NCBI RefSeq assembly: GCF_001699815.1
Contig: NZ_MCGB01000098.1
Location: 1 to 42,377 of the forward strand
Source: Ralstonia pickettii
Lineage (GTDB): Bacteria; Pseudomonadota; Gammaproteobacteria; Burkholderiales; Burkholderiaceae
Direction of reading: 5' to 3'
DNA: 42,377 bases
Shown here: positions 9,113-21,932 of the stretch, one piece after another
Layout of the letters: every line of letters starts with the position of its first letter
How positions within the stretch are numbered: position 1 is the first letter of the stretch
Position numbers and translations under genes: made by a program
Notes under the pieces: model-generated
Told to the model about the DNA's origin: nothing
The model's database searches: none
What the model saw: the letters and a program-made list of their open reading frames with translations, nothing else

Positions 9113-9781
9113 ATGCAGCCTCCCATCCAACTCGTCATTGCAGATGACCACCCCGGTGTGGTGGCGGCCGTGCGGCGCCTCGTGTCCGGCGTCCACGGCT
9201 TCGAGGTGGTTGGCGAAGCCAGCAACGCCGATGAGCTGCTCGCCGTGCTTGCGCGCGTGCGCTGCGACCTCGCCATCACCGACTACGCCATGCCCGGCAG
9301 CCGCTATGGCGACGGCATCATCCTGCTCGAATTTCTCATGCGTCGCCACCCGGACCTGCGCGTGATGGTGCTCACCATGCTTGAGACCCGCGCGCTGATG
9401 AGCAACATTCTGCGCGCGGGCATCAAGGTCATCGTCAGCAAATCCGACGAGCCGCAGCACATCCTCGAAGGCATGCAGGCGGCGGTGGATGGTCGCATCT
9501 ATCTCTCGCCGCTGCTCAATGCCAAGCTGCTCTGCCGCAACGGCGAGCCGCAGCCCGCCCACGACGACCCGGTCGCCAAGCTCGGCAAGCGCGAGCTGGA
9601 AGTGCTGCGCATGTACGTAACCGGCAAGACGGTCAGCGAGATCGCCCAGCAGCTCAACCGCAGCGTCAAGACCATCAGTTCGCAGAAGCAGACGGCCATG
9701 CGCAAGCTCGAGCTTGGTAACGAAGCGGCGCTGTTCGACTTTGCCGTGCGTCACGGCCTGCTTGGCAGCGGCGAGGGCTGA
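9113..9781 (+). CDS. LuxR-family (BvgA/RcsB-like) response regulator
   Basis: A 222-residue two-component response regulator. The receiver domain (residues 5-125) has the acidic pair in LVIADDHPG, the phospho-acceptor Asp57 in AITDYAMPG, and the conserved Lys in VIVSKSDE. A LuxR/FixJ-type helix-turn-helix follows (LGKRELEVLRMYVTGKTVSE, then IAQQLNRSVKTISSQKQTAM). The start at 9113 follows GGAGATA; an earlier ATG at 9065 would place a Cys/Arg-rich stretch before the receiver fold. It is followed after four bases by the BvgS-like kinase gene, so this is the cognate pair, and the kinase's C-terminal phosphotransfer domain would pass phosphate to Asp57. Target genes are not visible in the window. 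Confidence 0.92.
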   Translation: MQPPIQLVIADDHPGVVAAVRRLVSGVHGFEVVGEASNADELLAVLARVRCDLAITDYAMPGSRYGDGIILLEFLMRRHPDLRVMVLTMLETRALMSNILRAGIKVIVSKSDEPQHILEGMQAAVDGRIYLSPLLNAKLLCRNGEPQPAHDDPVAKLGKRELEVLRMYVTGKTVSEIAQQLNRSVKTISSQKQTAMRKLELGNEAALFDFAVRHGLLGSGEG

Positions 9782-9785
9782 GCCG

Positions 9786-14096
<4,311 letters not shown>

Positions 14097-14110: not shown

Positions 14111-14130
14111 AAGCGGTGCATGCACCGCTT
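14111..14130. terminator. Perfect 20-bp palindrome after the kinase gene
   Basis: AAGCGGTGCATGCACCGCTT is a perfect self-complementary 20-mer, followed by TTAGATT. As RNA it would form a hairpin with a 4-base loop and a weak U-rich tail. It is most simply read as the terminator of the two-component operon, although a protein-binding site is possible. Confidence 0.5.
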
Positions 14131-14146
14131 TTAGATTAACCGTTCC

Positions 14147-14158
14147 AATCGGCCGATT
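14147..14158. promoter_or_regulatory. Palindrome overlapping the -35 box of the monooxygenase operon
   Basis: AATCGGCCGATT is a perfect 12-bp palindrome whose last two bases overlap the TTGACT -35 element. Its position suits an activator or repressor site; the convergent MerR-family regulator is a candidate ligand protein by inference only. Confidence 0.4.
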
Positions 14159-14185
14159 GACTCGGTCGGGGCAGCCTCCTACGAT
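14157..14185 (+). promoter_or_regulatory. Sigma-70-type promoter of the monooxygenase operon
   Basis: TTGACT (14157-14162), a 17-base spacer and TACGAT (14180-14185) give a good match to the housekeeping promoter. The predicted transcript begins near 14192, shortly before the monooxygenase start. MerR-family activators usually act on spacers of 19-20 bases, so a 17-base spacer does not show the classic MerR geometry. Confidence 0.55.
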
Positions 14186-14202
14186 GACATCGATCAATGT
14201 CA
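14185..14202. promoter_or_regulatory. Dyad TGACAT-N6-ATGTCA at the transcription start
   Basis: Perfect six-base arms separated by CGATCA overlap the end of the -10 box and the predicted start point. A bound protein here would block the promoter, so this looks like a repressor operator. Which protein binds is not shown by the sequence. Confidence 0.5.
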
Positions 14203-14241
14203 CATTAAGAGGCGCCCATGTGGTGCCCACGGAGACACCAC

Positions 14242-15864
14242 GTGAACGCACGGACCGACTTTCCGCGCGCCGACGCCTTTGCGTCGGCCCCGCACAGCGC
14301 TGACGCCCCGCCCCTGATCGATGCCGCCATCATCGGGACGGGCTTTGCCGGCCTGGGCATGGCGATCCAGCTCAAGCAGCACGGCATCGACAACTTCCTC
14401 GTCTTTGAAAAGGCGGGCTCCGTCGGGGGCACGTGGCGCGACAACCATTACCCCGGCTGCGCGTGCGATGTGCAATCGCACCTGTATTCGTTTTCGTTCG
14501 CGCCCAATCCGGACTGGTCGCGCATGTATTCGCCGCAACCGGAAATCCGCGCGTATCTGGAGCGCTGCACGGATGAATTTGGCGTGCGCCCGCATGTGCG
14601 CTTTCATCACGAGCTGGCGCGTGCGGCCTTCGACGACGCTGCAGGCGTGTGGAACCTGGAGATGGCCGACGGCCGCCGGTATCGTGCCCGCACGCTGATC
14701 TCCGGCATGGGCGGCCTGAGCCGTCCGGCCTGGCCGAACATCCCCGGCATCGAGACCTTCCAGGGCAAGGCCTTCCACTCGCAGCTCTGGGAACACGATT
14801 ACGACCTGCGCGGCAAGCGCGTCGCCGTGATCGGCACCGGCGCTTCGGCCATCCAGTTCGTGCCGCAGATTGCGCCGAAGGTCGGCCGGCTCGACCTGTA
14901 TCAGCGCACGCCGCCGTGGATCCTGCCCAAGCCCGACCGCAAGGTGTCGCGCGCAGAGCACTGGCTGTTCCGCCACCTGCCGTTCACGCAAAAGCTGATG
15001 CGCACCGGCATCTACTGGATGCTGGAGTCGCGCGTGCTCGGCTTTGTGATCCATCCGAAGCTGATGAAGGCGGTGGAGCGCATGGCGCGCGGCCACATCA
15101 AGCGCCGCATTGCCGACCCCGTGCTGCGCGAGAAGGTCACGCCGGACTACACCATCGGCTGCAAGCGCATCCTGATCTCGAATGACTATTACCCGGCGCT
15201 CACGCGCAAGAACGTCGACGTGATCACGTCCGGTATCGCTCGCGTTGAGCCCAACGCCATCGTCACCACCGACGGCACGCGGCGCGAAGTCGATTGCCTG
15301 ATCTTCGGCACGGGCTTTCATGCAACGGACCCGTTCCCGCGTGGCGTGCTGCTCGGCAGCCAGGGCGTGGACATTGTCGACATGTGGGACAAGCACGGCG
15401 CCGAGGCCTACCTGGGCACCACCGTGTCGGGCTTCCCGAATTTCTTCATGGTGGTGGGCCCGAACACGGGGCTCGGCCACTCGTCGATGGTGTTCATGAT
15501 CGAGTCGCAGGTGGCGTACATCGTCGACGCGCTCAAGTCGATGCGTGCGCACAACGTGGCGGCCATCGACGTACGCCCCGACGTGCAGCGCCGCTTCAAC
15601 GACGGCATCCAGAAGCGGCTGTCGCATGCAATCTGGTCTGCCGGCGGCTGCGTGAGCTGGTACCTCGATCCGAAGACCGGCAAGAACACGACGCTGTGGC
15701 CGGGATTCACGTGGCAGTTCCGTCGCGCCACCGCGCATTTCCGGCTGGCCGATTACCGCACGCGCCCGATGGCGGTGCCCAAGGGTGTGCCGCTGCGCGT
15801 ACCCGCCCGCACAGTGCCGGCCGCTCAAAACACCCCCAACGAAGAAGCGCTCGACCGCGTCTGA
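14242..15864 (+). CDS. Flavin-containing monooxygenase, Baeyer-Villiger type
   Basis: A 540-residue FAD- and NADPH-dependent monooxygenase. The N-terminal FAD Rossmann motif is AAIIGTGFAGLGMAI, the Baeyer-Villiger fingerprint FxGxxxHxxxW is present as FQGKAFHSQLW, and the NADPH Rossmann motif is VAVIGTGASAIQ. The later FGTGFHATDPF is also typical of the family. Such enzymes insert oxygen next to a ketone to give an ester, or oxidise soft heteroatoms. It heads a four-gene operon with a dehydrogenase (alcohol to ketone) and an alpha/beta hydrolase (ester cleavage), which suggests a short alcohol-ketone-ester-acid route for a hydrophobic substrate. The GTG at 14242 follows GGAGA with six-base spacing; an in-frame ATG at 14218 with AGAGG is an equally possible start and adds eight residues. 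Confidence 0.92.
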   Translation: MNARTDFPRADAFASAPHSADAPPLIDAAIIGTGFAGLGMAIQLKQHGIDNFLVFEKAGSVGGTWRDNHYPGCACDVQSHLYSFSFAPNPDWSRMYSPQPEIRAYLERCTDEFGVRPHVRFHHELARAAFDDAAGVWNLEMADGRRYRARTLISGMGGLSRPAWPNIPGIETFQGKAFHSQLWEHDYDLRGKRVAVIGTGASAIQFVPQIAPKVGRLDLYQRTPPWILPKPDRKVSRAEHWLFRHLPFTQKLMRTGIYWMLESRVLGFVIHPKLMKAVERMARGHIKRRIADPVLREKVTPDYTIGCKRILISNDYYPALTRKNVDVITSGIARVEPNAIVTTDGTRREVDCLIFGTGFHATDPFPRGVLLGSQGVDIVDMWDKHGAEAYLGTTVSGFPNFFMVVGPNTGLGHSSMVFMIESQVAYIVDALKSMRAHNVAAIDVRPDVQRRFNDGIQKRLSHAIWSAGGCVSWYLDPKTGKNTTLWPGFTWQFRRATAHFRLADYRTRPMAVPKGVPLRVPARTVPAAQNTPNEEALDRV

Positions 15865-15892
15865 TGCGCGTCAGCCCCACGGAGACCCCGCC

Positions 15893-16783
15893 ATGAAGTC
15901 ATTCAACAACCAGGTTGCCGCCATCACCGGTGCTGCGTCGGGCATGGGCCGCTCGCTGGCGCTGCGGCTGGCACGCGAAGGCTGCCACCTTGCGCTGGCC
16001 GATCGCAATGAAGCGGCGCTCGCGCAGACGCTGCAACTGGTGCGTGCGCATGAAGGCGACCGCATCCGCGTGACCACGCATGCCGTCGACGTGGCCGACC
16101 GCGCCGCGGTGTACCGCTGGGCCGAAGAAGCGGCCGCCGCGCACGGCAAGGTCAACCTGATCTTCAACAACGCGGGTGTGGCGCTGTCCAGCACGATCGA
16201 AGGCATGGAAGACGACGAGCTGGCCTGGATCATGAACATCAACTTCTGGGGCGTCGTACACGGTACCAAGGCGTTCCTGCCGCTGCTCAAGGCAACGGGC
16301 AACGGCCACATCATCAATACGTCGAGCATCTTCGGCATCTTCGCGCAGCCGGGTATGGGCGCCTACAACGCCAGCAAGTACGCCGTGCGCGGCTACACCG
16401 AAGCGCTGCGCCAGGAACTCGATCTGATGGACTGCGGCGTGTCGGCCACGTGTGTCCACCCGGGCGGCATCAAGACCAACATTGCCAAGTCGAGCCGCGT
16501 CTCGCCGAGCATGAACGGCTTCCTGGTGCGCGACGAACAGCAGGGCAAGGCCGAGTTCGAGAAATTCTTCATCACCTCGGCGGACAAGGCTGCGGAGGTG
16601 ATCCTGGACGGCGTGCGCAAGAACAAGCGCCGCGTGCTGATCGGCCCCGACGCGCACGCTGCAGACGTGATGGCCCGCGTGCTGCCTGCCGCGTATCAGG
16701 CGCTGGTCGTGCGCGAAGCGCGCCGCACGCGCAAGAAGGCACTGCGCGACGATGCGGCGCCGGCCACCGCGCGCGCCAAGTAG
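15893..16783 (+). CDS. Short-chain dehydrogenase/reductase
   Basis: A 296-residue classical SDR. It has the cofactor motif TGAASGMG near residue 15, NNAG (in FNNAGVALSS), the catalytic Ser in NTSSIFG and the YxxxK pair in YNASKYAVRG. The C-terminal extension after residue 230 is basic and Ala-rich (for example EARRTRKKALRDDAA), somewhat longer than the minimal fold. It likely interconverts an alcohol and a ketone or aldehyde that feeds or follows the monooxygenase. The start is set by GGAGACCCCGCC before the ATG. It lies 28 bases after the monooxygenase and nine bases before the hydrolase start, so it is part of the operon. Confidence 0.92.
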   Translation: MKSFNNQVAAITGAASGMGRSLALRLAREGCHLALADRNEAALAQTLQLVRAHEGDRIRVTTHAVDVADRAAVYRWAEEAAAAHGKVNLIFNNAGVALSSTIEGMEDDELAWIMNINFWGVVHGTKAFLPLLKATGNGHIINTSSIFGIFAQPGMGAYNASKYAVRGYTEALRQELDLMDCGVSATCVHPGGIKTNIAKSSRVSPSMNGFLVRDEQQGKAEFEKFFITSADKAAEVILDGVRKNKRRVLIGPDAHAADVMARVLPAAYQALVVREARRTRKKALRDDAAPATARAK

Positions 16784-16792
16784 GAGGTGCCG

Positions 16793-17815
16793 ATGACCAC
16801 GGCCACCACCGGCGAACTGTTTGCCAGTCCCCCGCGCGCGAATCTGCTCAACGTTGCACGCGCCATGCTGCGCCCGGGCCGCATCGGCTTGCGCAGCATC
16901 GGCCGCGATGTGCTGATCGCGCGCTACGCCAAGCCGCAATCGCGCTACCTGCCACTGATGGGCACGCGCGTCCATTACACCGATGAAGGTGCCGCCAATT
17001 CCGAAGGCACGTTGCTGCTGATCCACGGCTTTGGCGCATCGCTGCACACGTGGGATGGCGTGCTACCGCAGCTCACGCGGCGCTACCGCGTGATCCGGCT
17101 CGACCTGCCGCCCTTCGGCATCACCGGCCCCCTGCGTGATGCGCAAGGCCGCCCGCGCGCAATGGAGCTGCCGCTGTACCGCGACTTCATCGACGCGTTT
17201 GTCGACACACTCGGCCTGTCGAAACTCACGCTGATCGGCAACTCGCTCGGCGGCATGGTGTCGTGGGACTTTGCCGTGCGGCACCCGGGCCGCGTCGAAA
17301 AGCTCGTGCTGATCGACTCGGCAGGCTTTCCGATGAAGCTGCCGATCTACATCGATCTGTTCAATCACCTGGGCGTGCGGCTGACGTCGCCGTGGATGCT
17401 GCCCGAGGGGATCATCCGCGCCGCCACGCGCGATGTATATGGCGACCCGTCGCGCGTGTCCGAACCGACGCTGCGCCGCTACGCCGATTTCTTCTATGCC
17501 GACGGTGCACGACAGGCCATCGGCAAGATGGTGCCGAAGTTCCGCTTTGACGATGTCGATACCAGCGGGCTGGCCTCGATCCGAGTGCCCACGCTCATCC
17601 TCTGGGGCCAGCGCGACCGGTGGATCCCGCCCGCGCACGCCGGCGAATTCGCCCGCCGCATTCCCGGCGCCACGCTGCGCATGTATCCGGCGCTCGGCCA
17701 TATCCCGATGGAGGAAGACCCCGTACGCGTGGGGACCGACCTCTGTGCATTCCTCGATCAAGGGCGCGCATCGACGCGCCTCGCCGCAACCACATTCCAG
17801 GAGAACCGCCCATGA
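16793..17815 (+). CDS. Alpha/beta hydrolase
   Basis: A 340-residue alpha/beta-hydrolase-fold enzyme. The oxyanion-hole motif HGFG (LLLIHGFGASLHTWD) is followed by the nucleophile elbow GNSLGG, an acid in WGQRDRWIPP and the catalytic His in ALGHIPMEEDP. About 60 N-terminal residues precede the fold and contain a hydrophobic, basic stretch (ARAMLRPGRIGLRSIG), possibly for membrane contact. It could hydrolyse the ester made by the Baeyer-Villiger enzyme, but this is inference from position. AGGAGG ends five bases before the ATG at 16793 and overlaps the stop codon of the dehydrogenase gene. The stop overlaps the next start (ATGA), which indicates translational coupling. Confidence 0.9.
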   Translation: MTTATTGELFASPPRANLLNVARAMLRPGRIGLRSIGRDVLIARYAKPQSRYLPLMGTRVHYTDEGAANSEGTLLLIHGFGASLHTWDGVLPQLTRRYRVIRLDLPPFGITGPLRDAQGRPRAMELPLYRDFIDAFVDTLGLSKLTLIGNSLGGMVSWDFAVRHPGRVEKLVLIDSAGFPMKLPIYIDLFNHLGVRLTSPWMLPEGIIRAATRDVYGDPSRVSEPTLRRYADFFYADGARQAIGKMVPKFRFDDVDTSGLASIRVPTLILWGQRDRWIPPAHAGEFARRIPGATLRMYPALGHIPMEEDPVRVGTDLCAFLDQGRASTRLAATTFQENRP

Positions 17816-18708
17816 TGCCAGTCCGCCGCGACGTGCATCCTCACCTGCCGGCTGATCGCATCAGCAACTGGCACGAGCGAGGCACGCACGTCACCCACTT
17901 CCTGAACGCGCTGTCGATCTTCTTCCCGACCGGCGAGCGCTTCTTCATGGACAGCGTGCGCAACTACCGTCATCTGGTGACCGACCCCGAGCTCAAGCAG
18001 GCCGTGGCCGGCTTCATCGGCCAGGAAGCCATGCATACGCGCGAGCACGTGTTGTACAACGACCTCCTCGATCGCGCCGGCCTGCCCGCCACGCGCATCG
18101 ACCGCTTTGTCGGCAAGTTCCTGAACGTGCTGCGCAAGTGGACCCCGAAGTCGCACCAACTGGCCGTGACCGTGGCGCTGGAACACTACACCGCCATGCT
18201 GGCCGGCCAAGTGCTTTCACATGAAGATGGCCTGGGCCGCAACTCGGAGCCCGGCTACCGCCAGGTCTGGCTGTGGCACGCCATGGAAGAGACCGAACAC
18301 AAGGCCGTCAGCTACGACGTGTGGAATCTCGCCATCAAGCCGGGCCTGCGCCGCTACATCCTGCGCACATCGACGATGCTGCTGACCACGCTGCTGTTCT
18401 GGTCGATGGTGTTCTACGTGCATCTGCGGCTGATCTTTGCCGATCGCACCTGCAAGAACATGTTCTTCGGTCTGGGCAAGGCATTCCACTTCCTGTGGAT
18501 TCACCCGGCGCCGCTGCGCAAGATCATCCCGGAATTCTTCGACTTTTTCCGGCCTTCATTCCACCCGTGGGATGAAGACAACCGTGACGCACTTGAACGC
18601 CTGCCCAAGCTGATCTCGGAAATCGAAGCGTATGCGGCAGCGAACGGCGAAGCGCCGTCGCCGTCGATCCGCCGCAAGCTGTCGACGGCGGGTGCAGCGG
18701 GATCTTGA
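17812..18708 (+). CDS. PF10118-family predicted metal-dependent hydrolase
   Basis: A 298-residue protein of the family annotated as predicted metal-dependent hydrolase (PF10118 by recollection). Likely metal ligands are spread over helices: GQEAMHTREHVLYN, ALEHYTA and WHAMEETEHKAVSYD, a set of Glu and His pairs (ExxxH-type) reminiscent of di-iron helical-bundle proteins. A hydrophobic helix (TSTMLLTTLLFWSMVFYVHL) suggests membrane association. The ATGA overlap with the alpha/beta hydrolase and AGGAGA before the start make it the last gene of the operon. The real activity of the family is poorly known; hydroxylase or desaturase-like chemistry is as plausible as hydrolysis given the ligand pattern. 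Confidence 0.82.
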   Translation: MMPVRRDVHPHLPADRISNWHERGTHVTHFLNALSIFFPTGERFFMDSVRNYRHLVTDPELKQAVAGFIGQEAMHTREHVLYNDLLDRAGLPATRIDRFVGKFLNVLRKWTPKSHQLAVTVALEHYTAMLAGQVLSHEDGLGRNSEPGYRQVWLWHAMEETEHKAVSYDVWNLAIKPGLRRYILRTSTMLLTTLLFWSMVFYVHLRLIFADRTCKNMFFGLGKAFHFLWIHPAPLRKIIPEFFDFFRPSFHPWDEDNRDALERLPKLISEIEAYAAANGEAPSPSIRRKLSTAGAAGS

Positions 18709-18768
18709 GCAGGCATTCAAAACGCCTGCAGCACCCGTCGTATCGGGATCAAACTAGAAATAGATCAG

Positions 18769-18799: not shown

Positions 18800-19618
18800 C
18801 TAGCCTTTGTCCGGCCCGGGCGCGCTGCCCGGCGGTTCGTGCATGTGCTCGATGACCTGCGCCACGCGGTCGCCCAGGTATTTGTTGGCGGCCGTCTCAA
18901 GTGCGCGCATCAGCTCGGCTTCGACTGCCACCAGCGCCAGCGGACGGATGCGCCAGATCACGTCGACCAGACGCGGCACGTCTTCGACCGGCGGCAGATC
19001 GCTGCCGTACTTGTCGAGTTCGCGCACGACCATGGAGACAAGATCGTCGGCCACCGCCTGCGTATGCGGCCGGGCACGCTCGATGATGTCGAGCACCTCA
19101 ACAAGCGGGAAACCGGCCTTTGCCATCTGCGCGCCGGCCAGCAGCGCCTTCGGGCTGCGCGCCAGATAGCCGAGGCCATCGGGCTCAAGCAGGCCGAGCG
19201 AGATGGCCCGCGCCAGCGCCTGACGCGACATGGCACGGCCAAACAGCTTGGCAAGCGCCAGGAGCGAGTAGTGCTTGGGCGACTCGTCCGACCAGGGGCT
19301 CGCGATGGCCGATTCGAGCCCGAGGATGGAGCGCAGGTCATGGCCTTCGACGATGGCCTTGAGCAGCTCCTGGATGTTGGAGAGCGTGTAGCCGCGCCCG
19401 AGCAGGTGATTGATGAGCTTGAGCCGCCCCAGATGCGCCTGCGTGTAGATGCCCACGCGTCCGCGCCGCTCGGGCGGATCGATCAGGCCGCGGTCCTGAT
19501 ACGAACGGACGTTGCGGACAGTGGTTTCGGCCGCGCGCGCCAGTTCGTCGATGGTGAACTCGCGGGCGGGCGGAATGGCAGGCGGACCGGCGTCGCCGGT
19601 TGGTTTGCGGGCGGGCAT
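18800..19618 (-). CDS. MerR-family transcriptional regulator
   Basis: A 272-residue regulator. After a Pro/Ala-rich leader of about 20 residues comes the MerR winged helix (FTIDELARAAETTVRNVRSY, then QDRGLIDPPERRGRVGIYTQ and HLGRLKLINHLLGRGYTLSN). The long C-terminal region (residues 95-272) is helical and lacks the Cys ligands of metal-sensing members, so it may bind an organic ligand. It is convergent with the monooxygenase operon and is its most likely regulator; divergent control of the exported-protein pair at 19705 is also possible. No ribosome-binding site precedes the ATG. Instead TAGAAT lies seven bases before it, which suggests a leaderless transcript. Confidence 0.9.
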   Translation of the reverse strand: MPARKPTGDAGPPAIPPAREFTIDELARAAETTVRNVRSYQDRGLIDPPERRGRVGIYTQAHLGRLKLINHLLGRGYTLSNIQELLKAIVEGHDLRSILGLESAIASPWSDESPKHYSLLALAKLFGRAMSRQALARAISLGLLEPDGLGYLARSPKALLAGAQMAKAGFPLVEVLDIIERARPHTQAVADDLVSMVVRELDKYGSDLPPVEDVPRLVDVIWRIRPLALVAVEAELMRALETAANKYLGDRVAQVIEHMHEPPGSAPGPDKG

Positions 19619-19676: not shown

Positions 19677-19704
19677 TGCGTTTCTCACGACGAGGAGACC
19701 GTCG

Positions 19705-20862
19705 ATGTGGGACTTGACCTTGCGTCATCGAAATAGCGCGCTGCGGGCTGCGGGCGCAGTGGTGGCGGCGCTGCTGCTGCAAAGCTGCGCCACCGCCGGC
19801 GACGGATACGGCGCCATCGAAGCCGACAAAGCCAAACAGCTTGAAGATGCACGGGCCCAGGCGCGCGCGCCGTTCCAGGTGGGCAATCTCGCCACGCGCG
19901 AGGTGCGGCCCGCCACGCTGCGCGATTCGGGCCAGCCCGATGCGATCTCGTATCTGCGGCATGTCGATTTTCGTTTCGATGGCGGCGTCGGCTTCCTGGT
20001 CGACCAGCTCGCGCTGCGCATGGTGCCGCGTGCACCGGGCGATCCGGTGTGGCTCGACGATGTGTCGTCGTACACGCTGCAGCCGGTGAGCGGTTCGGTG
20101 CGCGTTACGGCCGAGAGCATGGCCGCGCTCTTCAACACCGTGGTGTTTGCGCGCGGGCCGGGTGAAGATCCGCCGCTGCGCGGCTTCAGCTTCTCGCTTG
20201 ATGACGGCACGCTCGACATGCGCGCCGAGATGCACCGGCGCGGCGCCTGGGTGCCGATCGAGCTGCGCGGCCCGCTGGTGTTGCGCGATCCGCAGACCAT
20301 CGTGTTCCACCCCAACGTGGTCAAGGTGCGCGGGCAGGACGCCGGCGCGCTGATGGGCGCGGCGCATATCGAACTGGCCGATCTGTTGCCGGTATCGACG
20401 CCTGCCGTGCAGCTGACTGGCAGCGAAATCGTCATGCAGGTGCCCAAGCTGTTTCCGCCGCCCGCGCTGGAGTTGAAGCTCTCCGCCATTCGCGTCACGC
20501 GCGACGGGCTGCTCATGCAGATCGGCGATGGCAACCCGCAGATGCCGCCGCTGGCCAACGCCGCCGACGCGCAGCGCCCGTACATCCTCTTCCGCGGCGG
20601 TGACATCCGCTTCATGCGCTCGATGCCGATGAACGCGCGCATCGATATCGTCGTGGCCGACCCGGCCAAACCCTTCGTGTTCAACCTGTACCGCTATCGC
20701 GACCAGCTTGTCGCGGGGTCGCTGCGCTTCTCGCCGGATGGCGGCATTCGCGTGCTGATGCCGTCGTTCGACACCCTCGCCGCTGCCAAAGCCGCCAAGG
20801 CAACAGCAATTGCCAAAGCAGGCAAGCCTGCCCTGCAACTCGCCAAGAGGACCGCGCCATGA
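19705..20862 (+). CDS. Putative lipoprotein, first of a tandem paralogous pair
   Basis: A 385-residue exported protein. The N-terminus has a hydrophobic signal ending in LLLQSCATAG, a plausible lipobox with Cys about residue 25. The mature part starts with a charged helix and then a beta-rich region that matches the next gene block for block: VDFRFDGGVGFLVDQL, PVWLDDVSSYTL, ESMAALFN, GTLDMRAEM, GAWVPIELRGPLVL and FPPPALELKLSAIRVTRDGL. The pattern of amphipathic strands suggests a lipid- or hydrophobe-binding fold of the DUF2993/LmeA kind, but this is a guess. The ATG at 19705 follows GAGGAGACC. Its stop overlaps the next ATG (ATGA). The C-terminal tail is Ala/Lys-rich. Confidence 0.8.
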   Translation: MWDLTLRHRNSALRAAGAVVAALLLQSCATAGDGYGAIEADKAKQLEDARAQARAPFQVGNLATREVRPATLRDSGQPDAISYLRHVDFRFDGGVGFLVDQLALRMVPRAPGDPVWLDDVSSYTLQPVSGSVRVTAESMAALFNTVVFARGPGEDPPLRGFSFSLDDGTLDMRAEMHRRGAWVPIELRGPLVLRDPQTIVFHPNVVKVRGQDAGALMGAAHIELADLLPVSTPAVQLTGSEIVMQVPKLFPPPALELKLSAIRVTRDGLLMQIGDGNPQMPPLANAADAQRPYILFRGGDIRFMRSMPMNARIDIVVADPAKPFVFNLYRYRDQLVAGSLRFSPDGGIRVLMPSFDTLAAAKAAKATAIAKAGKPALQLAKRTAP

Positions 20863-21932
20863 TCGCCCCCGCCTTCGCTCTCGCCGCTGTGATGTTGCGC
20901 CTGGCGCTGGTGACGCTTGGCTTGGCCGGGCTGCTCGCCAGCGCACTCGCCCGCGCCGCCGAGCCGCCGATGGCCAACGCCCAACGCAAGGAGTTGACGA
21001 CGGTACGCCAGCAATGGGCGCAGCGCTGCGATCCGTCCTCCGGCGCGCCCAATGCCAGCGGCCCCGCCGTCGCGCGCGACTCCGGCACCGCACCGCCCGT
21101 CGTGCAGATGCGGGATGTGGATTTCCGCATCACCGGCGACATCGGTTTCCACGTGCATCAACTGACCGCGCAGCTCGTGCCGCACAAGCCGGGGCAGCCC
21201 GTCGACATGGACGACCCGGGGCAGTTCGACATCCGCATCCTCGGCGGGGAAGTGACGGTGCCCAAGGATTCGCTCGACGCGCTGTTCAACCGGTATCTGC
21301 TCGACTATTCACCGCGCTCACTCAATGCGCTGTCGCTGACACCCGGCGACGGCGTGCTCGACGTGTCGGGGGGGCTGAAGCTACGCAATCATTTTCCCGG
21401 CGTGTGGCTGCCGTTCGGCATGCGCGGCACCTTGGCGCTCAAGGAATCGCGCTTTCTCGTCTACACGCCCACCGAGGCACGCGTGATGGGCATCCAGACG
21501 CTGGCGCTGCTCAAAGGGATGGGGCTGGAGCTGTCGCAGCTTGCGCCGCTCAATCGCACCGGCGCCAAGCTGGATGGCAACGACATGGTGCTGGACCAAT
21601 ACACGGTCTTCCCGCCGCCGCGCCTGGTCGGTCAGATGAAGACGGCGCGTGTCACGCCGGACGGGCTGGTGCTCGGGTTCGGCCCCGCGCCCGCCATGTG
21701 TGCGCCGGCGCCAACCGACGCCGCGAGCCGCATCTGGATCCAGTCCGGCGACCTGAAGATGTACAACGTGCTGGTGGCCAACAGCCGCGTGCTCGTGACC
21801 GATACATCAACGCGCGGGCCGCTGCGCTTCGACCTGTACCACTACCGCGAGGCCGCCGCGCGCGGCACCACGCGCATGGATGCCGATGGCACGCTGCGTG
21901 TGGACCTCGCGCCGGCAGGGGCCGCTCAATAG
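20859..21932 (+). CDS. Exported protein, second of a tandem paralogous pair
   Basis: A 357-residue protein with a Sec signal peptide (LVTLGLAGLLASALARAAEP, cleavage near ARA-AE) and no lipobox. It parallels the preceding gene over about 300 residues: VDFRITGDIGFHVHQL, PVDMDDPGQFDI, DSLDALFN, GVLDVSGGL, GVWLPFGMRGTLAL and FPPPRLVGQMKTARVTPDGL, with the same order and spacing. One copy therefore appears to be membrane-anchored and the other soluble in the periplasm. Four-base overlap with the upstream gene points to coupled, stoichiometric synthesis and perhaps a hetero-oligomer. I do not recognise a named family with certainty. Confidence 0.8.
   Translation: MIAPAFALAAVMLRLALVTLGLAGLLASALARAAEPPMANAQRKELTTVRQQWAQRCDPSSGAPNASGPAVARDSGTAPPVVQMRDVDFRITGDIGFHVHQLTAQLVPHKPGQPVDMDDPGQFDIRILGGEVTVPKDSLDALFNRYLLDYSPRSLNALSLTPGDGVLDVSGGLKLRNHFPGVWLPFGMRGTLALKESRFLVYTPTEARVMGIQTLALLKGMGLELSQLAPLNRTGAKLDGNDMVLDQYTVFPPPRLVGQMKTARVTPDGLVLGFGPAPAMCAPAPTDAASRIWIQSGDLKMYNVLVANSRVLVTDTSTRGPLRFDLYHYREAAARGTTRMDADGTLRVDLAPAGAAQ

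Follow-up and report, generated by a model that had tools for sequence, protein, structure and literature searches.

A predicted Baeyer-Villiger-type operon of Ralstonia pickettii, its candidate MerR regulon and its PF10118 protein

Described pathways and the Ralstonia pickettii operon

The logic of operons built around a Baeyer-Villiger monooxygenase (BVMO) is known. What is new in the locus described here, which lies on a 42,377-nt stretch of Ralstonia pickettii DNA (contig NZ_MCGB01000098.1; hereafter the window), is a traced regulon of an operator and its candidate MerR regulator, together with a PF10118 protein that is probably misnamed. Among described systems, the subterminal alkane oxidation set of Thalassolituus oleivorans MIL-1 shares the alcohol dehydrogenase/BVMO/esterase logic (TOL_2772, TOL_0709 and TOL_0906; PMC6304351). 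Its genes differ from the window's cluster in bearing distant locus tags, the comparison being one of descriptions. According to the main text of that study, no specific subterminal hydroxylase was identified on C28 alkane, and neither 'metal-dependent hydrolase' nor 'MerR' occurs in it. AlmA of Acinetobacter baylyi ADP1 is cited as having Baeyer-Villiger activity on C10-C16 2-ketones (PMC11784139, PMC12449030) and is a flavin monooxygenase placed downstream of a first hydroxylation, as is proposed for the window BVMO. It differs, again by description only, in its regulators, which are AlmR and the AraC-type APR1 and not a MerR protein. Alcanivorax AlmR was considered as a possible MerR protein and this was not borne out, as it is described with an Ig-like domain (PMC11784139) and with the family entry 'None' (PMC8784404). 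On plasmid pMYCCH.01 of Mycolicibacterium chubuense NBB4, a 'metal-dependent hydrolase' 37.5% similar to the window's PF10118 protein lies near a short-chain dehydrogenase/reductase (SDR), two FAD oxidoreductases and an alpha/beta hydrolase, but there the regulators are a TetR and another helix-turn-helix protein and the gene order differs. Among the open-access literature matches listed, no description of the operon parts, of PF10118 or of COG3687 was found.

The locus consists of four genes on the plus strand that face a convergent regulator gene:

14242-15864, plus strand: BVMO-like type I flavin monooxygenase, 540 aa; PF00743/PF13738 (FMO-like/Pyr_redox_3); best PDB relative cyclohexanone monooxygenase (1.7e-71)
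15893-16783, plus strand: SDR, 296 aa; PF00106 (adh_short), 2.4e-47
16793-17815, plus strand: alpha/beta hydrolase, 340 aa, with a GNSLGG nucleophile elbow read from the sequence; PF00561 (Abhydrolase_1), 1.6e-29
17812-18708, plus strand: PF10118 (Metal_hydrol) protein, 298 aa; 5.1e-80, 269.2 bits against a cut-off of 33.2
18800-19618, minus strand: MerR-family regulator, 272 aa, convergent with the operon; PF13411 (MerR_1), 2.3e-20, 72.9 bits against a cut-off of 21.6

The initial annotation had named these four families, with overlaps or gaps below 30 bases and a convergent MerR protein beside them, and the layout is as it described: 28 nt and then 9 nt separate the first three genes, a 4-nt overlap joins the last two, with the PF10118 start lying within the hydrolase end, the MerR gene reads from 19618 to 18800, and all five proteins exceed their own Pfam cut-offs. 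The BVMO probably starts at GTG 14242 rather than at ATG 14218, because GGAGAC precedes the former and homologues start with MNA at the equivalent position.

Type I BVMOs carry two fingerprints, [A/G]GxWxxxx[F/Y]P[G/M]xxxD and FxGxxxHxxxW[P/D]. The first is present as GGTWRDNHYPGCACD (residues 62-76) and invariant in 7/7 sequences. The second is recognisable by the invariant F173, G175, H179 and W183 and deviates in its last residue, which is E here and R or N in relatives. The protein also contains two Rossmann motifs (GTGFAG and GTGASA) and an invariant K308-R309 that aligns with the KR of cyclohexanone monooxygenase, whose Lys-Arg region has a catalytic role. Cyclohexanone and phenylacetone monooxygenases are among its closest relatives of known structure, and we predict a type I Baeyer-Villiger-like flavin monooxygenase activity for the gene product.

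The genes stay together in relatives, as a neighbourhood comparison shows. A PF10118 ortholog (93-100% identity; 99% in G005) was present in all 16 same-genus genomes searched (G000-G015), and the order kinase-BVMO-SDR-hydrolase-PF10118-MerR was found in 14/14 same-genus loci that span the region (L031-L044); a 15th locus (G013) is split over two contigs, each half agreeing with that order. In Cupriavidus, the sister genus, 8/8 loci taken with flanks (L080-L087) hold all four genes with MerR converging on them, and in G017 the four genes lie close to a contig end and MerR close to the end of another contig. A broader set of 79 named loci was selected by PF10118 similarity alone, and 51 of them, including 17 from Pseudomonas, contain a BVMO relative (counted at 200 bits or more). 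In the 22 BVMO operons of Burkholderia, Paraburkholderia and Trinickia the window's hydrolase was never found between SDR and PF10118 (0/22), and a different alpha/beta hydrolase follows PF10118 in 20/22 (exceptions L111 and L114). In three genomes of the own genus a homologue of this second hydrolase stands under its own operator copy, which is exact in one and has a single arm mismatch in the other two, and the window's own genome holds an 87% identical copy of it without such a site. A dedicated, syntenic and regulated operon of BVMO, SDR and hydrolase is supported, as a prediction from genome comparison.

Several neighbouring features were recorded alongside. Upstream of the operon lies a large hybrid sensor-kinase-like gene (9714-14096), the aligned part of which shows 68-92% identity between species, compared with 81-99% for the operon proteins; its synteny is nonetheless kept. 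A short inverted repeat, GCAGGC..GCCTGC (18709-18729), stands between the converging operon and MerR gene and is possibly a shared terminator. Downstream of MerR, the gene 19696-20862 has no Pfam family, and the stretch directly after it (21063-21902) is related to it (32% identity over 286 residues). The genome also holds a second PF10118 cluster (G000:C73, L050:4314-7944) with a Peptidase_M24 family gene, an alpha/beta hydrolase-SDR fusion and a PF10118 paralog, and in Paraburkholderia domus (L220) the dyad treated below stands ahead of an M24-type gene followed by a PF10118 relative.

The probable operator and its candidate regulator

The upstream region contains the following elements:

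14185-14202, plus strand: dyad TGACATCGATCAATGTCA (TGACAT-N6-ATGTCA), very probable operator, overlapping -10/+1; intact in 16/16 upstream regions and a regulon-wide motif
14157-14185, plus strand: sigma70-like promoter TTGACT-N17-TACGAT, from a promoter scan
14147-14158, plus strand: first dyad, the palindrome AATCGGCCGATT; exact in 7/16 upstream regions
14132-14135, plus strand: TAGA element at about -60, adjoining a terminator-like hairpin; TAGA in 15/16 upstream regions
14111-14130, plus strand: hairpin (perfect 20-nt palindrome) followed by TTTTAGA; the 46 nt of 14097-14142 fold with -13.8 kcal/mol (z -2.19)

Two dyads had been proposed at the promoter and both are exactly there, but only the second is conserved across the 16 upstream regions compared (15 of the own genus, including the window, and one of the sister genus). 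Perfect dyads arise often by chance: the window has 29 of the 6-N6-6 kind, and 32 palindromes of 12 bp that are likewise perfect. Conservation therefore carries the argument. The second dyad, whose first base is the last base of the promoter (14185), is very probably an operator. Its motif, T[GT]ACAT-N6-ATGT[AC]A, is found ahead of related operons in Burkholderiaceae and in some Gammaproteobacteria, and it occurs 42 times in the 1.24 Mb of the 79 loci, with 0 occurrences for each of two permuted controls. Thirty-five of the 42 sites lie no more than 250 bp upstream of a BVMO or PF10118 gene, a space amounting to 2.6% of the sequence (binomial 1e-48). This rule missed five further sites (L108, L110, L114, L132 and L146), which stand just ahead of the aligned BVMO start, because that start had been extrapolated past them. 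By the strict rule the dyad was found at 0/17 Pseudomonas loci. The extended pattern CCTANGATGACATCGNNCAATGTCACA, with up to 3 mismatches, occurs in 23/150 genomes of the family, the reversed control in 0. In the own genome, copies with up to 2 mismatches (61 sites, one of them exact, against 34 in the reversed control) are not clearly above noise; those on contigs 57 (the two closest together), 69 and 113 (one each) were inspected and dropped.

The first dyad was rejected as an operator. The palindrome is probably due to chance apart from the -35 that it overlaps, the overlapping part being the one that is kept (GATTGAC in 15/16 and TTGAC in 16/16 upstream regions). On sequence comparison the second conserved promoter element is the rigidly placed TAGA and not AATCGGCCGATT: it precedes the operator by 49-54 bp in 27/29 BVMO-operon promoters, against a background of 4.5% in random 90-mers. 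The window's TAGA corresponds to one half of a TAGA-N8-TCTA dyad found in Burkholderia and Paraburkholderia relatives; the full dyad is present in 17/29 BVMO-operon promoters (background 0.2%), was seen outside BVMO operons in L213 only, and occurs in 0/17 Pseudomonas operons. A -35-like hexamer, TTG[AC][CG], stands at the expected distance in 26/29 of the promoters and in many other regulon promoters as well. The adjoining hairpin is probably the terminator of the hybrid-kinase gene, and visual inspection shows a related stem in most upstream regions of the genus.

The MerR protein is, from its genomic distribution, the best candidate binder of the operator. Among the 150 family genomes an ortholog is present in 49 and the motif in 51, and the two coincide: all 49 MerR-positive genomes carry the motif, compared with 2/101 MerR-negative ones (Fisher 1e-37). 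Within the four genera that include both kinds of genome the counts are 21/21 and 1/19 (stratified 7e-9). The background of the motif in these 150 genomes is above zero, the reversed control being present in about 29. A MerR profile was run against 32 genomes: the 22 from outside Pseudomonas all gave an ortholog of full length (E below 1e-68), and the 10 from Pseudomonas gave a helix-turn-helix match at most. In a search of 38 genomes the motif TKACATYNNNYRATGTMA was found in 31/32 non-Pseudomonas and 0/6 Pseudomonas genomes, and the reversed control in 11 of the 38. Orthologs also occur in genomes where the MerR gene does not adjoin the operon.

Classical MerR activators have their dyad between a -35 and a -10 that are separated by a spacer of 19-20 bp. 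If the dyad is the MerR site and this its promoter, the architecture here is another one, with a 17-bp spacer and a dyad that begins at the last -10 base. The dyad overlaps -10/+1 and therefore suits a repressor site, not classical MerR activation. With CadR, CueR and GlnR/TnrA of the MerR family the window's protein shares the N-terminal winged helix (PF13411); it differs from them in this dyad position and spacer, and in its C-terminal part of about 180 aa, which has no Pfam family. In the model (pLDDT 83.4, pTM 0.55) residues 115-167 probably form a second winged helix, and long helices lie towards the C-terminus. The duplication is visible in the model, while its profile support is weak (p 0.014; controls 0.04 and 0.35). 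The regulatory domain of the Rv1264 adenylyl cyclase, which binds fatty acid, was set aside as a relative of the C-terminal fold, its Foldseek rank being weak (E 4e-3) and a profile match absent.

It is possible, if doubtful, that another operon-linked or global repressor binds the dyad and that MerR binds elsewhere, for example at TAGA-N8-TCTA, or regulates something else. The overlap with -10/+1, unlike classical MerR sites, and the existence of TAGA as a second rigidly placed element would suit such a binder, as would a TetR gene that is divergent from one dyad in Limnobacter. That TetR was rejected as a general regulator: among 23 genomes its close homologues are limited to Limnobacter and one metagenome-assembled genome (MAG), and the next best match has 30% (in G218). 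MerR tracks the dyad within genera and has orthologs in genomes where it stands apart from the operon, and the TAGA dyad is missing from most other regulon promoters that bear the TGACAT-type dyad.

The wider regulon, the proposed pathway and PF10118

Burkholderia singularis has 7 operator sites, strain TSV86 has 6 and one B. multivorans genome has 4. The genes nearest to the Burkholderia sites include PF10118 paralogs and an SDR/flavin monooxygenase/hydrolase cluster, and further SRPBCC (Polyketide_cyc2), DUF6670, amidohydrolase and MAPEG proteins; in a Moraxellaceae MAG they include a patatin and a DUF1302 gene. Each site was assigned to the gene whose start codon lies closest, and some sites are flanked by candidates on both sides. 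The predicted regulon has a lipid- or hydrophobe-related flavour. In the Moraxellaceae group of this MAG, PF10118 matches were found in 40 of 61 genomes, with up to 17 per genome; of the 20 loci returned, PF10118 adjoins a BVMO relative in 7 (one in pieces) and the dyad lies upstream in 5. Some PF10118 genes of this group stand in tandem (L239, L243).

On balance we lean towards a repressor-controlled catabolic operon that would oxidize and cleave a hydrophobic ketone or secondary alcohol, such as a long-chain, lipid-like or terpenoid compound. In this scheme a MerR dimer on TGACAT-N6-ATGTCA would block RNA polymerase and be released by a hydrophobic ligand or metabolite, and we infer inducible control by a hydrophobic substrate. 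Judging by their families, the SDR would oxidize a secondary alcohol, the BVMO would insert oxygen into the resulting ketone to yield an ester, and the alpha/beta hydrolase would split the ester into acid and alcohol. PF10118 may share this hydrophobic substrate; its most attractive role would be that of the hydroxylase, turning an unactivated chain into the alcohol. The predicted gene content fits a subterminal oxidation pathway of hydroxylase, alcohol dehydrogenase, BVMO and esterase.

Alternatively, the BVMO-like enzyme might act on other molecules by sulfoxidation or N-oxidation, or on drug-like compounds in the style of EthA, so that the operon would detoxify rather than feed. BVMOs are promiscuous, and the MAPEG, amidohydrolase and SRPBCC proteins next to dyads in some Burkholderia point in this direction; the constant pairing with an SDR and the alpha/beta hydrolase of most operons, however, fit the chain from alcohol to ketone to ester, and we consider detoxification a minority possibility.

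The pattern E/ExxH/E/ExxH on four helices characterizes ferritin-like di-metal carboxylate oxidases, including R2lox, CmlI, AurF and R2. PF10118 shows it in both sequence and model. The di-iron-like Glu/His pairs noticed in the initial annotation are real: E42, E72xxH75, E124 and E160xxH163 are invariant in 46/46 aligned homologues, all of which match the Pfam profile at E 0.001. In the predicted structure (pLDDT 92.7) each helix holds one set of ligand residues (helices 38-50, 59-88, 113-136 and 147-174). In a Foldseek comparison with the PDB the top ten ranks were CmlI and R2lox, followed by R2, AurF and desaturases among unrelated helical proteins. None of these fold matches reached an E-value of 1e-3 or less; the best was 0.026, and for the top ten the TM-score relative to the query was 0.27-0.46. 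No significant PDB sequence relative of PF10118 was found. The protein is like R2lox, CmlI, AurF and R2 in its predicted helical fold and the order of its ligands, and unlike them in the lack of a significant sequence match, in weak fold scores and in a long hydrophobic helix (179-210). From the model we infer a ferritin-like di-metal carboxylate oxidase or oxygenase rather than a hydrolase, and the accepted name 'metal-dependent hydrolase' is probably wrong. One R2lox member, GkR2loxI, has been reported as an alkane monooxygenase (PMC10867098).

A bolder reading, which we consider rather unlikely as a whole, is that PF10118 proteins are misnamed ferritin-like di-metal oxygenases which would carry out the first hydroxylation when long-chain or lipid-like substrates are oxidized subterminally by the Baeyer-Villiger route; SDR, BVMO and hydrolase would complete the cleavage, and the whole regulon would be controlled by a MerR repressor with two winged helices bound at T[GT]ACAT-N6-ATGT[AC]A. 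A true metal-dependent hydrolase performing a second ester- or lactone-cleaving step, as the Pfam name and the database annotation 'metal-dependent hydrolase' would have it, appears unlikely to us. An alpha/beta hydrolase is already in the operon, the ligand pattern and predicted helical fold match di-metal carboxylate oxidases, and the sole hydrolase-named PDB profile match is insignificant (E 1.1).

Weight of the evidence and meaning of the locus

Least probable by far is an ordinary operon with chance palindromes, a reading which the abundance of perfect dyads in the window sustains for the first dyad and which the conservation and positional enrichment of the second contradict.

Several observations weigh against the favoured repressor-controlled pathway, besides the weak fold scores of PF10118. 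A ferredoxin or reductase to feed a monooxygenase is absent from the operon, and the function of the operon is read from its families, with substrate and activities being predictions. Within the fetched stretch, 28 of the 79 loci contain no BVMO relative of at least 200 bits, and the strict rule finds the dyad in just 35/62 non-Pseudomonas PF10118 loci; of the 22 MerR-positive genomes outside Pseudomonas, roughly half lack a dyad at the fetched locus. The operator is positioned differently from that of a classical MerR activator. Its half-sites do not co-vary (24 symmetric, 18 asymmetric; p = 0.52), and coupled half-site substitution, convincing by eye, was given up as proof of a dimer site. 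The link of MerR and operator is correlative because both travel with the operon, which leaves room for another operon-linked binder. Across 229 genomes of the class MerR was found in 5, with the motif in 2/5 of them, and the motif alone is near background (28/229, against about 20 for the reversed control). The link therefore holds for Burkholderiaceae, and beyond this family only at individual loci.

As stated in PMC12449030, it could not be confirmed that flavin enzymes credited with the first step of long-chain alkane oxidation play that role, and AlmA may act later as a BVMO. PF10118 is widespread, carries predicted di-metal ligands and is apparently co-transcribed with a BVMO, which makes it a concrete candidate for the missing subterminal hydroxylase. 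The operator and MerR pair defines a predicted regulon that may serve in an inducer screen and so offer a route to the substrate.

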